A DNA stretch of 64,000 bases. It comes from Rhodobacter capsulatus. GTDB taxonomy: Bacteria; Pseudomonadota; Alphaproteobacteria; Rhodobacterales; Rhodobacteraceae. Below the pieces are notes generated by a model. The model was not told the DNA's origin. It worked only from the letters and a program-made list of their open reading frames with translations, and ran no database searches. Positions 39,877 through 50,377 of the stretch are shown piece by piece (the first letter of the stretch is position 1; each line of letters begins with the position of its first letter). The position numbers and the translations under genes are program-made. The stretch is from contig NZ_SWJZ01000008.1 of NCBI RefSeq assembly GCF_005144475.1, positions 186,001 through 250,000 on the forward strand. The letters are read 5' to 3'.

Positions 39877-40779
39877 TTATCTGAGCTGGCTGAGCGCCTG
39901 GCAGAGCTGATCGAGATCATCAAGCGTCCGGTAGCGGATCGACAGCCGCCCACCCTCGGCGCCATCGTGATCGATGCTGACGCTCATCCCGATCGTCGCG
40001 GAAAGATCCGCTTCCAGCGCCCGGGTGTCGGCATCTTTCTCTCGCGGCGGTCTTGACGCGGGCTTCGAGGCGGCGCCTGACATTCCGGGTGTCTCGTCTT
40101 TCGCCAGCCGCTCGACATCTCGCACCGACAGGCCCTTGGCGATCGTCTCCTTGGCCAGCCGAACCGGATCGGGCGCCGTCACCAAAGCACGCGCATGCCC
40201 GGCGGTCAGCTTGCCGTCGCGCAGGAAATCCTGGACCTCGTCGGGAAGATTGAGCAAACGCAACAAGTTGGCAATATGGCTGCGACTTTTGGAAAGCGCC
40301 TCGGCAAGCTTTTCCTGAGTATGGCCGAAGCGATCCATCAGCTGCCGATAGCCCATCGCTTCTTCCAGCGGATTCAGATCGGCGCGCTGGATATTCTCGA
40401 TGATCGCGACTTCCAGCACTTCGGTATCGGTGAAATCGCGCAGGATGACCGGCAGTTCATGCAACTTTGCCAGCTGCGCCGCACGCCATCGGCGTTCCCC
40501 GGCAACGATTTCGAAGCTGTCTTCCCCCTTCGGGTGCTTGCGCACGATCAAAGGCTGAATGATGCCCTTTTCGGCAATCGACGCGCGCAATTCTTCCAGA
40601 GCCTCGGGCGCAAAAGTGCGCCGGGGCTGATCCGGGTTCGGAACGATCTTTTCGATCGGAACAAGCATATCCCTGCGCCGCGGCGCAACCTCGGCTTCGG
40701 CAGTGGGGATCTGAACATCCGCCATCAGCGCCGACAAGCCCCGGCCCAGGCCCCGACGCTCGGGTTTTCTCTCGTTCAT
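39877..40779 (-). CDS. parB: ParB, centromere-binding chromosome partition protein
   Basis: A 300-aa chromosomal ParB with N-terminal [12 protein letters not shown], the CTP-binding motifs including GERRWRAAQ near residue 95, and a central helix-turn-helix (about 150-175, [20 protein letters not shown]). The C-terminal part is a dimerisation domain ([14 protein letters not shown]). It binds parS (two perfect sites nearby), loads SMC and guides origin segregation with ParA. The ATG overlaps the parA stop (ATGA). Confidence 0.97.
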
Positions 40780-41597
40780 GCCCTGGCCTTTCGTTCTTGT
40801 GTCGCATGGAGGTCAAGCAGTTCTGCCGCGAGGGATCGATACGCTTCCGCGCCCTTCGACCCTGCGTCATAGCTCAAGACAGGCAAGGCATACGACGGCG
40901 CTTCGGAGATTCGGACGTTGCGCGGAATCATCGTCCGGAACACAAGCTCACCCAGAGTCGCGCGCGCATCGGCTTCCACCTGCTGCGACAGGTTATTGCG
41001 CACATCATACATGGTCAGCACCACGCCCTCGATCCGCAGATCGCGATTCGCGGTCTGGCGCACTTCCCGGATTGTCAGCATCAGTTGCGACAACCCCTCA
41101 AGCGCGAAGAACTCTGCCTGCAGCGGCACCAAAACCGATTGCGCCGCAACCATCGCGTTGACGGTCAGCAGATTGAGCGAGGGCGGGCAATCGATCAGGA
41201 CATAATCGAGCCGAAACTGGTCGATATCGGTTTGACGCAGCGCATCATGCAGAAGAAAGGTGCGCTTTTCGGACGAAACAAGCTCCATATCCGCAGAGGA
41301 CAGGTCCGTCGTCGCGGGCGAGATCAACAGCCCGTCAAAGTCGGTTTTCTGCACGACCTCTGACAGCGGCGCCTCTCCGAACAGCAGGTCATAGGTGCTG
41401 AACTTGCGATCTGCCGCCTCGACACCAAGGCCCGTCGACGCGTTCCCTTGCGGATCAAGATCAACCAACAGCACCCGGCACCCGCGCTCGGCCATCGCAG
41501 CAGCGAGGTTGATCGCAGTGGTCGTTTTGCCAACGCCCCCCTTCTGGTTCGCGATGGCAATGATTCTTGGTTGTGTCGGTCGAATGGGATCAGGCAC
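40776..41597 (-). CDS. parA: ParA, chromosome partition ATPase
   Basis: A 273-aa deviant-Walker ATPase ([12 protein letters not shown] at residues 19-30, [16 protein letters not shown], and [16 protein letters not shown]) that drives ParB-bound origins apart. The start is GTG 41597 with AAGGGG 8 nt upstream, overlapping the rsmG end by 8 nt. It ends in an ATGA overlap with parB. The rsmG-parA-parB order is typical of origin-proximal operons. Confidence 0.97.
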
Positions 41598-42213
41598 GGT
41601 GCAACCCCTTGATTTTCAGAACGACGGACTCCGGATCCGTGGCACTGGGTTTCGGTTCGAAGTCAAAGGACCATTTCTGCTGCGCCTGCGCAACCTCTTC
41701 GCGCCAGCGATTTCCTTTCGGAAAAAGAGCGATGCCCGCGGGTGACAGATGACGCTCCGCATAGCTCAGCAACATTTCAAGCGGTGCCAAGGCTCGCGCC
41801 GACAAGACATCCGCTGCGAGCGGGTCAAGGGACTCGATGCGGCGGTCCGCTACTTCCGCGAAAAGACCCAGATCTCGGACGGAATTGAGAAGAAAAGCGG
41901 CTTTGCGTTTGTCGCTTTCGACGAGAGTCAGCCGCATATCGGGAAATCGCTCTTTTGCCAGAACGCCGACCACGAGGCCTGGAAATCCCCCGCCACTTCC
42001 CAGATCAGCCCAGTGCTGCGGAGCTTGCGCGACAGATTGAAGGATCTGGGCAGAATCCAGAAAATGACGTGTCCAGATTTCCGCAAGCGTCCGCGGAGAA
42101 ACCAGATTGATGGCCGGGTTCCACTTTTTCAGCAACGCTTCCAGGCGCTCGAGGCGCTCAATTGTTTCACGTGAAACATCAACCAGATCTGCGAAAGCTT
42201 CGGGGCCTGTCAT
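41590..42213 (-). CDS. rsmG: RsmG, 16S rRNA G527 N7-methyltransferase
   Basis: A 207-aa SAM-dependent methyltransferase (formerly GidB). The SAM motif [12 protein letters not shown] lies near residue 70 and [19 protein letters not shown] near 40-58. It starts at ATG 42213, overlapping the mnmG stop by 4 nt. Codons for DVSRETI (about residues 12-18) encode a perfect parS site at 42163-42178, so DNA-binding and protein-coding constraints coincide here. Confidence 0.96.
42163..42178. other. parS centromere site 1 (inside rsmG)
   Basis: TGTTTCACGTGAAACA, a perfect 16-bp parS consensus palindrome bound by ParB, 1.4 kb from parB and about 5.2 kb from the predicted oriC. Confidence 0.95.
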
Positions 42214-44081
42214 TTCCGCTCGGCCCTTTTGTCCTGCCGAAGTCGCGCAAGAATCAAGGACAACGCTGCGGGGGTCGCGCCGTCGACCTGACTCGCTTGA
42301 TGCAATGTTCGGGGCGAAGCAGACCTGAACTTCGTTTTCAGCTCATTCGACAGCCCGGACAACGCGTTATAATCGAAATCAGCGGGAATCTCCCAATTCT
42401 CGTCCCGGCGCATGGCCTCAACATCTCGCTGCTGCCGCAAGATGTAGTTTGCATAAAGCGCCTCGTTCGAGAGCTGCGTTGCGATATCGGCCGAGATCCC
42501 GTGCAGCTCGGGAAAATCTTTCCGAAGCGTTTCGAAGCTGATCTCCGGAAACGCGAGCAACTGATACGCCGACCGTTTCACCCCATCCTGATTGAGTGCA
42601 AGCCCAAGCGAAATCGCCTGCGTCGGCGTCAGAACGATATTGTCCAGAATGCCCTTTCCAGCCGCCATCTTTTCCATCTTTTCGGCAAAAGCGCGATGCC
42701 GTGTCTCTCCGACGCAGCCGATCTCGAATCCGCGCGGCGTGAGACGTTGGTCCGCATTGTCCGCGCGCAGGAAAAGTCGAAATTCGGCGCGAGAGGTGAA
42801 CATGCGATAAGGCTCACTGACGCCCCTGCTCACCAGATCGTCAATCATCACACCGATGTACGAATCGGTCCTGCTGAAAGTCACGGGATCGCGCTGCAAT
42901 GATTTGCTGGCCGCGTTCAGCCCCGCAACCATCCCCTGTGCCGCGGCTTCCTCGTAACCGGTCGTGCCATTGATCTGACCGGCAAGGAACAAGCCGTCCT
43001 GGTCGCGCAATTCAAGCGTCAGCTTCAGCGCCCTCGGGTCCACGTAATCATATTCGATCGCATATCCCGGCTGCAAGATCCGGGCGTTTTCCAGACCACG
43101 GATCGATCGGACATATCTTTCTTGCACATCCGCGGGCAAAGACGTCGAGATGCCATTCGGATAAACGGTATCGTCGTCCAACCCTTCCGGCTCAAGAAAG
43201 ACCTGATGCGAGGTTTTATCCGCGAACCGGACAACCTTGTCCTCGATGGACGGACAGTAACGCGGTCCGACCCCCTCGATATGCCCGCCATACATGGCTG
43301 ACCGCTGCAGGTTGTCGCGAATCACCTCATGCGTCGATTCGTTCGTATGAGTGATGCCGCAAGCGATCTGCCGCACGAAAGGGCCCGAACTGAGAAAACT
43401 CAGCATCACCGGATCTTCATCGCCAGGTTGCTTTTCCAGGCTATCCCAGTCGATGCTTCGGCCATCAAGACGCGGTGGTGTCCCGGTTTTCAGGCGACCG
43501 ACCGCGGGCGCGATCTCGCGCAGCCTTTGCGACAACGGAACCGAGGGGCGATCGCCCACCCGTCCCCCCGGAGACTGCTGATCACCGATATGGATCACGC
43601 CGTTCAGGAAGGTCCCCGTCGTCAACACGACGGCCGGCGCAAGGATCTCGGACCCGTCCATCAACCGCACCCCAGTTATGGCCGTTCCGGTCAGAAGCAG
43701 GTCGGTCACTTCGCCTTCAACCACATCCAAAAGCGGCTGCGTCGCGCAAAATTCGGCGATTGCCATACGATAGAGCTTGCGATCGGCCTGCGTTCGCGGT
43801 CCCTGCACCGCAGGCCCCTTGCGGCGGTTCAAAAGCCGAAACTGGATACCGGCACGATCGGCAGCCTTGCCCATCACACCATCCATCGCGTCGACTTCCC
43901 GCACCAGATGCCCCTTTCCCAAGCCGCCAATGGCCGGGTTGCAGGACATCACGCCAATCGCTGCGCGCCGCATCGTCACAAGCGCGGTTCGGGCCCCAAG
44001 CCGGGCCGAGGCATGGGCGGCCTCGGTTCCGGCGTGCCCCCCTCCGACAACGATGACGTCAAAATGTTTCACGTGAAACAC
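42210..44081 (-). CDS. mnmG: MnmG (GidA), tRNA wobble-uridine modification enzyme
   Basis: A 623-aa FAD protein that with MnmE installs carboxymethylaminomethyl at U34 of certain tRNAs. The FAD-binding [12 protein letters not shown] lies near the N-terminus, with [17 protein letters not shown]-type and [16 protein letters not shown] signatures later. The start is uncertain: GTG 44081 gives MFHVKHFDV but has its GAGGA directly adjacent, while GTG 44072 has GAGGAG 8 nt upstream and gives an N-terminus three residues shorter. A perfect parS overlaps both start choices. Confidence 0.95.
44065..44080. other. parS centromere site 2 (at the mnmG start)
   Basis: TGTTTCACGTGAAACA, identical to site 1, overlapping the first codons of mnmG, about 3.2 kb from the predicted oriC. 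Confidence 0.95.
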
Positions 44082-46684: not shown

Positions 46685-46709
46685 GCGCCAGACCCCTCGG
46701 GGGTGGCGC
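46685..46709 (-). promoter_or_regulatory. Hairpin in the rho leader
   Basis: GCGCCA...TGGCGC outer stem with an inner CCCC/GGGG stem, followed on the minus strand by CTTTCGC, 21 bases before the rho ATG. It is a possible hemJ terminator or rho autoregulatory structure. Confidence 0.35.
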
Positions 46710-46797
46710 AGCATGGGTCAGGGTTCGGCAGAACCTGCGGCCGGACGGCCGGGGCTGTCGCGCTTCTACGCGCAAAGCCCGCGGCGAGTCAACGAAA

Positions 46798-47274
46798 TCA
46801 GAACTTCACGATCACCGCGATCACGATGAGGAACATCAGCAGCGTCGGCACTTCGTTCATCATCCGCCATTGCCGGCCGGCCAGATCATTCGTGCCATCG
46901 ACGAATTTGTGCCGTGCCCGCGCCAGGAACATGTGAAACACCGTCATCGCGATCACGCAGGCGCCCTTGATCCAGGGCCATTGCATGCTCCAGTCGATGA
47001 TCCCCGGCGTGAAGACGAGGCAAAGCCCGAAAAACCAGGTCGAGATCGCCGCCGGATTCATGATCGCCTTGAGCAGCATCCGTTCCTGATGCTGGAACAG
47101 CTGATCCATCTCGCTGCCGCGCACAACGCCCCGCTTTTTCAGGCCTTCGACGTGGTAAACGTAAAGCCGCGGCAGATAGAACAGGCCCGCCATCCAGGCT
47201 AGGACGGACATCACATGCAGCGATTTCGTCCAGAAATACCAATCCGAAAGGAAATCCGTGACGAGTTCGAACAT
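46798..47274 (-). CDS. hemJ: HemJ, protoporphyrinogen IX oxidase
   Basis: A 158-aa inner-membrane protein with about four transmembrane helices that oxidises protoporphyrinogen to protoporphyrin, the last common step of heme and bacteriochlorophyll synthesis. The family signature [20 protein letters not shown] is near the N-terminus (His ligand) and [15 protein letters not shown] follows in the middle. It is the first gene left of the predicted oriC. In relatives hemE commonly lies here too but is absent. Confidence 0.94.
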
Positions 47275-47669
47275 CTGTGCCTCCTGTGTCGGCTTCTTCT
47301 TAAGAATTATTCTTGAAAAGAAAAGATGTTGATTTTGTAGGGGCTGTGGACAGTGTGGATAGACCGGTTTTCCAGACCTTTTCCCAAGCCTTGAAAGCTC
47401 TGCAAGCGAGATTGCAAAACCCTGTTGATAAGCTTTCGATCTCTTTTTAGATCAATAGCTTGCGTGGTTGATACCGAAGGGGACGGTTTGGGGGCGTTCC
47501 GTTTTGTTCTTGTGGGTTGCGGCACTTCCTCACATCCGCCCTGTCGTCCTTCCCACATGCTGGAAGTCTCGTTTCGTTCCTTGACAAACTCGCCCCTTCC
47601 CGGGGAGGAAAAGATGCACCCCCTTTTGTCCCCAGGCGCGCCCCTCCGGTTTTCCCAACGGTTGTCCAC
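47275..47669. other. oriC: Predicted chromosomal replication origin (oriC)
   Basis: About 395 non-coding bases at the point where gene direction flips from leftward (parB to hemJ) to rightward (maf to dnaQ). The same gene order brackets oriC in Caulobacter and other alphaproteobacteria. The segment at 47297-47340 is about 77% A+T by my count, in a very GC-rich chromosome, and contains AAGAATTATTCTT. DnaA-box-like 9-mers follow: TGTGGACAG and TGTGGATAG directly abutting (47345-47362), TGTTGATAA (47423-47431) and TTGTCCACA (47662-47670). The first differs from consensus at two positions and the others at one. A 12/13 match to the IHF consensus lies at 47450-47462. Two parS sites are within 5.3 kb. 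Confidence 0.75.
47430..47461. repeat. Inverted repeat within the predicted oriC
   Basis: Arms of 13 nt (47430-47442 and 47449-47461) match at 11 of 13 positions around a CTTTTT loop. The left arm overlaps the end of the TGTTGATAA DnaA-box-like sequence. Confidence 0.6.
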
Positions 47670-47745
47670 ATGCTTGCCCCCCTTGTTCTGGCCTCTTCCT
47701 CCGAAATCCGCGCGCAGCTCCTGCGCTCTGCCGGACTTTCGGTGA
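47614..47745 (+). CDS. Possible 43-aa ORF overlapping the maf start
   Basis: ATG 47614 follows GGAGGAAAAG, a near-ideal ribosome-binding site, and opens a 43-codon frame rich in Pro, Leu and Ser (begins [11 protein letters not shown]). It covers the maf ATG (47670) in another frame and ends inside maf. It could couple maf translation or be fortuitous. I do not recognise the peptide. Confidence 0.25.
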
Positions 47746-48269
47746 CGATCTCCCCCGCCCGCATCGATGAGGATGCGATCCGTCAGGCGCTGGAACGTGA
47801 GGGGGCGACGCCGCGCGATGTCGCCGATCAGCTGGCCGAGGCGAAGGCGATGAAGCAATCCGCCCGTCATCCGGGCGCTTTGGTGCTGGGCGCCGATCAG
47901 GTGCTTGAATTGCAAGGCGAGATCTTCGCGAAACCCGAAACCCCGGCGCAGGCGATGGCGCATCTGCGCGCGCTCTCGGGGCGGACGCATCGGCTGCTCT
48001 CGGCGCTGGTGGTGGTGCAGGACGGCCGCCCGCTCTGGCGTCATCTGGCCGAGGTGCGACTGACCATGCATCCGCTCTCCGACGCCTTCATCGCCGATTA
48101 CACCGCCCGGAACTGGGACTCGATCCGCCACGCCGTCGGCTGCTACAAGCTCGAAGAGGAAGGCGTGCGGTTGTTTTCCGCCGTCGAGGGCGATTACTTT
48201 GCCGTTCTGGGCCTGCCCCTGATCGAAGTGCTGAACTGGCTGCGCGTGCGAGGAGATCTGACGACATGA
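47670..48269 (+). CDS. maf: Maf-family nucleotide pyrophosphatase
   Basis: A 199-aa Maf/HAM1-like protein that hydrolyses non-canonical or certain canonical nucleoside triphosphates and is linked to septum inhibition. The family start [19 protein letters not shown] and the later [11 protein letters not shown] and [16 protein letters not shown] are present. The ATG at 47670 lacks a Shine-Dalgarno sequence. A strong one (GGAGGAAAAG) instead serves an out-of-frame ATG at 47614. The stop overlaps aroE (ATGA). It is the first gene right of oriC. Confidence 0.93.
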
Positions 48270-49096
48270 CCCGTATTCCTCTGGCTGGCGTGATCGGGCA
48301 TCCGATCCATCATTCCCGCTCGCCCGCGCTGCATGGGCATTGGCTGAAAACCTATGGCCTGCGCGGCCATTACATCCCGATGGATGTGGCCGAGGGCGAT
48401 CTGGAAACCGTGTTGCGGACGCTTCCCAAAGCCGGGTTCGTCGGGTGCAACATCACGATTCCGCACAAGGAAACCGCGCTGGCCCTGGCCGATGTGGTTT
48501 CTGACCGCGCGCTTCGGATCGGCGCGGCGAACACGCTGGTGTTCGATGAAACCGGTCGGATTCACGCCGACAACACCGACGGCATCGGCTTTCTGGCCAA
48601 TCTGGTCGAGGGCGCCCCGGGCTGGCAGGCCACGGCGGGCCCCGCGGCGGTGATTGGCGCAGGCGGCGCCGCCCGCGCCATCGTGGTTGCGCTGCTCGAG
48701 GCCGGTTGCCCGGAAATCCGCATCGCCAACCGCACCCGCGCCCGGGCCGAGGCGCTTTGCACCGCATTCGGCCCCCGCATCGTGGTCGAAGACTGGGACA
48801 AGGTCGGATCGATCTTCGACGGCGCCGCGACAGTGGTGAACACGTCCTCGCTTGGCATGGCCGGAAAAGCGGCGTTCGACCTGCCGCTGGACGCACTGTC
48901 CGCCGCGGCAGTCGTCACCGACTGCGTCTACACCCCCCTGCGCACCGATTTCCTGACCGCCGCCGCCGCCCGCGGCTGTGTCACCGTCGATGGCCTCGGC
49001 ATGCTCTTGCACCAGGCCGTTCCCGGCTTTGAGCGCTGGTTCGGCCACCGCCCCGAGGTCACCCCCGAACTCCGCGCCGTGGTGCTTGCGGCATGA
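48266..49096 (+). CDS. aroE: Shikimate dehydrogenase
   Basis: A 276-aa NADPH-dependent enzyme reducing 3-dehydroshikimate in aromatic amino-acid synthesis. The substrate site HHSRSPALH lies near residue 13, the catalytic Lys in [11 protein letters not shown] near 65, Asp in ADNTDGIGF near 100 and the NADP loop [10 protein letters not shown] near 128. It overlaps maf and coaE by 4 nt each, in the conserved origin-proximal run maf-aroE-coaE-dnaQ. Confidence 0.97.
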
Positions 49097-49689: not shown

Positions 49690-50377
49690 GATCGTCCTTG
49701 ATACCGAAACCACCGGATTTGAACCCTCCGAAGGGCATCGCATCGTCGAAATCGGCGCCGTCGAGCTGATGAACCACGTCCCCACCGGGCGGACCTATCA
49801 TCAATACATCAACCCGGACCGCGCGATGCCGCAGGAAGCCTTTGCCGTGCACGGGCTGGGCGATGATTTCCTGCGCGACAAGCCGAAGTTCGGTGCCATC
49901 GCCCAGGATTTCCTCGATTTCATCGGCAATGACTCGAAGCTGGTGATCCACAACGCCGCCTTTGACATGAAGTTCCTGAATGCCGAACTGGGCTGGGTGC
50001 AAAAGCCGTTGATCCCGGCGGATCGGGCGCTCGACACTTTGGCAATGGCGCGGCGAAAATTTCCCGGCTCGCCCGCGACGCTCGATGCGCTGTGCCGCCG
50101 CTTCAGCATCGACAATTCGGCGCGGACGCTGCACGGGGCATTGCTCGACTCGGAGATTCTGGCCGAGGTTTATCTGGAACTGATCGGCGGTCGCCAGCCC
50201 GGTTTCGGTCTGAATATCGACCCTGTTCCAGCCAAAAATGCCACTTCCGGCACCGAATGGCGGCCCCGTCCCCGTCCGGTTCCCCTGCCCCCGCGCCTCA
50301 CCGAGGCCGAGGCCGAAGCCCATGCCGCCTTTGTCGGAAAACTGGGCGACGGCGCGATCTGGAAGCGGCGCGGCTGA
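49682..50377 (+). CDS. dnaQ: DNA polymerase III epsilon subunit (proofreading exonuclease)
   Basis: A 231-aa DEDDh 3'-5' exonuclease. Exo[11 protein letters not shown] is near the start, Exo[17 protein letters not shown] near residue 98, and the ExoIII region [17 protein letters not shown] near 150-165. The C-terminal tail is short and Pro-rich, used to bind the alpha subunit. The ATG overlaps coaE. It is the last gene of the rightward origin-side operon. Confidence 0.96.

Follow-up and report, generated by a model that had tools for sequence, protein, structure and literature searches.

Where does replication of the Rhodobacter capsulatus chromosome begin? The question is raised by an intergenic gap between the genes hemJ and maf, lying in a stretch of 64,000 nucleotides (G000:C160:186001-250000, hereafter the window) from a draft genome (170 contigs, 4,224,534 bases in total). 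An earlier note on this DNA proposed the gap as the chromosomal oriC. No experimental origin mapping for R. capsulatus was found in the open-licence literature, nor any mention there of hemJ together with oriC. The accessible parts of several reports cover related bacteria: oriC was assigned by Ori-Finder and manual curation in 101 Rhodobacteraceae, with failure in eight (PMC6699656); the R. sphaeroides origins were located by GC skew and OriFinder (PMC6315104); marker-frequency work exists for C. sphaeroides 2.4.1 and three Paracoccus strains (PMC13342612); and, in a report on Ketogulonicigenium vulgare Hbe602, DoriC entries show a maf-adjacent oriC to be a conserved trait of Rhodobacteraceae (PMC4793288). 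The location beside maf is already known as a prediction for this family and is not new; since the place had been predicted, the gap is an ordinary though well-preserved feature. Judged from its sequence and from that of its relatives, and in agreement with the family-wide prediction (PMC4793288), the hemJ/maf gap is very probably the chromosomal oriC of R. capsulatus, and the earlier proposal is supported. The contig around the window, C160, has 297,594 bases; accordingly, local tests were made at that scale and chromosome-scale tests on relatives alone, among them a close complete relative, G003 (chromosome of 3,738,958 bases, HemJ 99% identical to the window's). The features of the locus are collected in Table 1.

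Table 1. Features of the candidate origin and its surroundings (window coordinates; mismatches of DnaA boxes are to TTATCCACA).
Feature	Position	Strand	Evidence
Candidate oriC, hemJ/maf intergenic region, 395 bp	47275..47669		Box cluster, A+T content, conservation
A+T-rich block, probable DNA-unwinding element	47297..47340		77.3% A+T; instability; position in 108 gaps
Degenerate GAT-type trinucleotide stretch between A+T block and tandem boxes	47325..47340	+	Alignment, sequence
DnaA-box-like CTGTCCACA, first of tandem pair	47345..47353	-	2 mismatches
DnaA box CTATCCACA, second of tandem pair	47354..47362	-	1 mismatch
DnaA box TTATCAACA	47423..47431	-	1 mismatch
IHF-like site GATCAATAGCTTG	47450..47462	+	1 mismatch to consensus WATCARNNNNTTR
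DnaA box TTGTCCACA	47662..47670	+	1 mismatch; last base is the first of the maf start codon
hemJ, left neighbour	46798..47274	-	TIGR00701, E 2.1e-37, 128.3 bits, below cut-off of 138.05
maf, right neighbour	47670..48269	+	Best match NF002690 Maf-like, E 2.4e-64, 216.6 bits, below cut-off of 269
parA	40776..41597	-	ParA-type families, best matches below curated cut-offs
parB	39877..40779	-	TIGR00180, 199.7 bits, cut-off 58.45
parS, exact 16-mer TGTTTCACGTGAAACA, inside rsmG	42163..42178		Exact motif match
parS, exact 16-mer, 5' end of mnmG (first codons, MFHVKH)	44065..44080		Exact motif match

DnaA boxes were counted by their mismatches to the reference TTATCCACA. The 64-kb window holds six sites with at most one mismatch, none of them perfect, and three of the six lie inside the hemJ/maf gap. 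Along contig C160 there are 12 such sites, three of which share one 400-bp interval at the gap; outside the neighbourhood of the gap, no 400-bp interval of the contig contains more than one. At two mismatches, the interval at the gap has six boxes against at most three elsewhere in C160. The sole perfect TTATCCACA of the contig lies outside the gap, at C160:39175. The gap therefore carries a box cluster above chance, the densest of the whole 297,594-base contig, and coincides with the contig's highest A+T 400-bp interval (0.515 vs 0.465 for the runner-up). All the sequence elements that the earlier note had read in it are present: the two abutting DnaA-box-like 9-mers, two further one-mismatch boxes, an IHF-like site and a 44-base block of about 77% A+T, which proved to be the richest 44-mer of the window. 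This block adjoins the tandem boxes, from which a short GC-rich spacer separates it. The lowest-stability 50-mer of both the window and the 297.6-kb contig starts at 47293; for 100-mers, the gap region ranks second-lowest in the window and third-lowest in the contig. Some reading frames overlap the gap, whose alignment across the genus shows many substitutions and some indels. Two other identities were rejected: an RNA gene, as an Rfam search of 46700-48300 gave no match up to E 1, and a plasmid origin, as blastn against a plasmid collection gave no match.

The gene content of the neighbourhood was read correctly in the earlier note, with family matches bearing out hemJ, maf, rho, mnmE, mnmG, rsmG, parA, parB, aroE and dnaQ (the best HemJ, Maf and ParA matches fall below curated cut-offs). 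Its claim that transcription polarity reverses at the gap stands in part. The genes hemJ and maf do diverge from it, with starts at 47274 and 47670, but polarity to the right is mixed and looser than claimed, because gene-like long reading frames at ~53.9-58.6 kb lie on the minus strand.

The comparison with relatives used HemJ as anchor, which matched 16 of 18 genomes of the genus and 124 of 150 of the family. Two sets of loci were taken: 44 genus and family loci that are the best HemJ matches (including the best 30 family loci, 28 of them new), and 80 named loci, the best 80 of 591. The genes hemJ and maf are divergent in 44/44 loci of the first set, across gaps of 355-450 bp, and in 68/80 of the second (best 80 of 591), where 64 gaps measure 353-446 bp and four 1199-2109 bp; the latter belong to L206, L209, L243 and L262, with a hemJ-maf distance of 1.2-2.1 kb. 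Combining 44 and 64 gaps gave 108 best-match gaps (107 distinct sequences), in which the two sets may share species and from which 16 of the 80 named loci are left out, 12 having no maf match in reach and four having the longer gaps. In its box-bearing gap directly beside maf, the locus resembles the predicted Rhodobacteraceae oriC of DoriC/Ori-Finder, which belongs to the same family and has maf as neighbour and a box-bearing region (accessible text of PMC4793288).

DnaA boxes are a constant of these gaps. With at most one mismatch, 261 boxes occur in 106 of the 108 best-match gaps, compared with 8.4 on average and 65 at most for 200 permutations of the letters of the DnaA-box motif; exact boxes number 39 (permuted mean 0.26, maximum 11). 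The two gaps lacking any box within one mismatch are L109, among the 44, and L255, among the 64. Measured from hemJ, boxes on the minus strand concentrate at 60-80 and ~200, and those on the plus strand at 80-100 and at the maf end. An A+T peak lies 20-40 from hemJ across the 108 best-match gaps, so the putative unwinding element keeps its position beside the boxes. In two further genomes, G017 and G157, the gap ranks first among 400 kb for boxes with at most one mismatch; over the same length it does not lead for two-mismatch boxes in G157 and is not among the five most A+T-rich intervals in G017.

The DNA between the A+T block and the tandem boxes invites comparison with the basal unwinding system (BUS) of Bacillus subtilis and its relatives, described in the accessible text of PMC8287927 as a DnaA box, a GC-rich spacer and trinucleotides with the consensus 3'-GAT-5'. 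The search rule given there consists of a DnaA box, a spacer of 0-16 bp and at least three NAN trios read 3'-5', and deviant trios without the middle adenine are suspected (PMC8287927). Many relatives share with this arrangement the order of A+T block, trinucleotide repeat, GC-rich spacer and boxes. GATGAT occurs between the A+T block and the tandem boxes in 65 of the 108 best-match gaps (local shuffles: mean 4.2, maximum 11) and is absent at that position from the window's own clade. Unlike in B. subtilis, the commonest repeat in the 108 gaps, read 3'-5', is TAG, which fits the middle-adenine search rule and not the 3'-GAT-5' consensus (PMC8287927). A script implementing a simplified form of that rule found it passed somewhere in 71 of the 108 best-match gaps (shuffles: mean 23.3, maximum 32) and at the unwinding-side minus-strand boxes in 45; the window and its three nearest relatives fail this simplified rule, the repeat being broken there. 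A speculative and rather unlikely reading is that Rhodobacteraceae origins open via a deviant DnaA-trio, of GATGAT type and reading 3'-TAG-5', and that the R. capsulatus clade broke the repeat further while keeping the origin, so that DnaA would grip single-stranded DNA there by a relaxed or different rule.

The IHF consensus is WATCARNNNNTTR. A plus-strand site resembling it lies at 150-195 from hemJ in 63 of the 108 best-match gaps; local shuffles average 8.7 and never exceed 18. An IHF site, DnaA boxes and ~40 bp of A+T-rich DNA also make up Cori of Caulobacter crescentus, which is flanked by hemE and by CC0001, COG1806, according to the accessible text of PMC1914354. The likeness ends with the flanks and with CtrA: here neither hemE nor COG1806 adjoins the gap, and 8 of the 108 best-match gaps contain the CtrA pair TTAA-N7-TTAA, the window's gap showing a single TTAA by eye. 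Control by CtrA was rejected on this count. GANTC, the CcrM site, occurs 0 times in the window's gap and 189 times (raw count) in 79 of the 108 best-match gaps.

The earlier note had remarked that hemE and the RP001 homologue are missing from the flanks. Indeed, hemE sits on another contig, C64, and PF03618 (Kinase-PPPase), which we take to be RP001/COG1806/DUF299, has no match in the genome; the 14 controls included E. coli, B. subtilis and Caulobacter, each of which gave one. This is not peculiar to the present genome, hemJ-gap-maf being the usual order in the fetched loci. Closeness to parABS, usual though not universal for oriC, is observed as well. The parS motif is TGTTTCACGTGAAACA. Two exact copies lie 3-5 kb from the gap, with no other within two mismatches in contig C160, and together with parA and parB they fall within 8 kb of it. 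Both parS sites are within coding sequence, one in rsmG and one in the first codons of mnmG.

The strand markers are less concordant, and no marker switches exactly on the gap. The earlier note had named cumulative GC skew as a check, with a minimum elsewhere counting against its reading, and on that check the reading came off badly. In G003, where skew was taken over sixty 20-kb stretches (some partly masked) and hemJ/maf is at 76.8 kb, cumulative skew is lowest at the 250-kb stretch and highest at the 1.94-Mb one, and the best two-step fit places the origin at 312.5 kb; the minimum thus lies ~170-240 kb to the right of hemJ/maf. For sets of 30 polarised 6-, 7- and 8-mers, the switch comes at 305-317.5 kb. 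At fourfold sites, corrected for gene strand with gene calls from a home-made codon score, G003 has no clean switch at the gap, its skew being left-arm-like to ~120 kb and of mixed sign to ~320 kb. In G017, the lowest cumulative GC skew of the 400 kb seen is ~120 kb right of the gap. Raw skew is mostly negative, or left-arm-like, well right of the gap in two genomes of the genus, G003:C1 (~77-150 kb) and G017:C1 (~217-357 kb). The G003 result was weighed less because its arms differ by only ~0.05 in skew and because the switch of a polarised octamer, described below, is only 10-15 kb off, but it still counts against the gap. GC skew was rejected as an origin locator, with the caution that it missed the gap in all three chromosomes sampled (G003, and G017 and G157 within the 400 kb seen). 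Among 64 loci from the best 80 of 591, 63 have a higher GC skew in the right 5-kb flank of the gap than in the left one (medians -0.088 left and 0.034 right), a difference that is ambiguous because gene divergence alone could produce it.

The octamer GGGCAGGG, the top-ranked 8-mer of the G003 polarised set, was examined singly once the k-mer sets had disagreed, and it was picked before its own profile was seen, one origin-zone stretch (3.44 Mb) having belonged to the set that ranked it. On one arm of G003, 81.5% of its 92 sites are in the forward direction, against 12.2% of 90 on the opposite arm. The switch is best placed at 89.7 kb (range within 2 log units: 87.3-92.2), where the fit exceeds that at the gap by 9.3 log units; relative to hemJ/maf, the fit worsens by 12 log units at the dnaA end, by 14 at 150 kb and by 47 at 310 kb. 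In C160 the best switch is at 246.4 kb (244.0-248.9), ~13 kb right of the gap as in G003. Under G003's rates, the switch falls at 226-251 kb in G017, 9-34 kb from the gap at 217.4 kb, and at 314-342 kb in G157, vs the gap at 412.5 kb, with a fit 8.3 log units better than the gap. The same interval of G157:C1, 70-98 kb left of hemJ/maf, is also where cumulative GC skew is lowest within the 400 kb seen.

These profiles raise the possibility of a true origin 10-15 kb further right, at about 58-63 kb of the window, where GGGCAGGG changes strand; the hemJ/maf boxes would then do no more than titrate DnaA or act in regulation. The agreement of C160 and G003 on a switch ~13 kb right of the gap favours such a placement, but C160 has no box cluster there. 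The marker itself is also too coarse at this scale. It fits the FtsK-type KOPS, 5'-GGGNAGGG-3' (accessible text of PMC13342612), and within ~5 kb of the gap, in 64 of the best 80 of 591 named loci, GGGNAGGG occurs 4 times forward and 64 times reverse on the left and 3 times forward and 47 times reverse on the right. Since the motif is reversed right of the gap in relatives too, it cannot place an origin finely, and an origin to the right is improbable. In the window, the GGGCAGGG sites right of the gap, at 50283, 51361, 57899 and 58099, are on the reverse strand.

The gap could also lack origin activity and serve hemJ and maf as a divergent promoter region controlled by DnaA and IHF. The divergence of the two genes, the box overlapping the maf start and the element TTGACAAA at 47581-47588, kept in most rows of the genus alignment and possibly the -35 of a maf promoter, would suit this explanation. 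The 12 of the best 80 of 591 named loci that have no maf in reach speak against it. They comprise six Paracoccus, three Acetobacteraceae (two of them presumably of that family), one alphaproteobacterial MAG and two loci ended by the contig close to hemJ. All six Paracoccus loci (L220, L231, L233, L241, L248 and L263), a variant that goes beyond the published prediction, retain 2-6 boxes of at most one mismatch in the 400 bp upstream of hemJ, where no maf match is in reach, while the four distant hemJ loci, from the three Acetobacteraceae and the MAG, have no box within 2.5 kb. The cluster is therefore unlikely to be an operator of either gene and appears to be tied to neither of them as such. 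The gap is moreover, in our judgement, longer and more constant than promoters need, and a mere promoter region is very improbable. By eye, the neighbour reads as aroE in two of the Paracoccus loci, L241 and L263.

An origin at dnaA, 75 kb to the left (C160:157.6 kb), would follow the pattern of many bacteria, and dnaA does open the G003 record (C1:699-1184), but it is the least credible placement: no DnaA box with at most one mismatch occurs across 59-181 kb of C160, the parS sites are ~70 kb from dnaA, and the G003 octamer fit at the dnaA end is 21 log units below the optimum and 12 below hemJ/maf. In G017, the Bac_DnaA family gave 25 matches, many of equal score, which are probably copies of an insertion-sequence ATPase and not DnaA.

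With the hemJ/maf gap as oriC, initiation may be pictured as follows. DnaA-ATP would bind the tandem boxes, and IHF would bend the DNA and bring in the outer boxes. A DnaA filament could then grow toward the A+T block and open about 47297-47340, where the helicase would be loaded, and ParB bound at the two parS sites would segregate the new origins. If this identification is right, it settles the origin's position for a family to which model phototrophs and many marine bacteria belong, and the comparative anatomy of the 108 gaps (box positions, IHF position and trinucleotide element) can guide footprinting. The accessible text of PMC4793288 names only maf as neighbour; to this the present analysis adds hemJ on the opposite side, the IHF position and the trinucleotide element. 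A minor observation concerns the maf end of the gap, where TTGTCCACA reaches into the start codon and relatives repeatedly have plus-strand boxes as well; maf expression may thereby be coupled to initiation.
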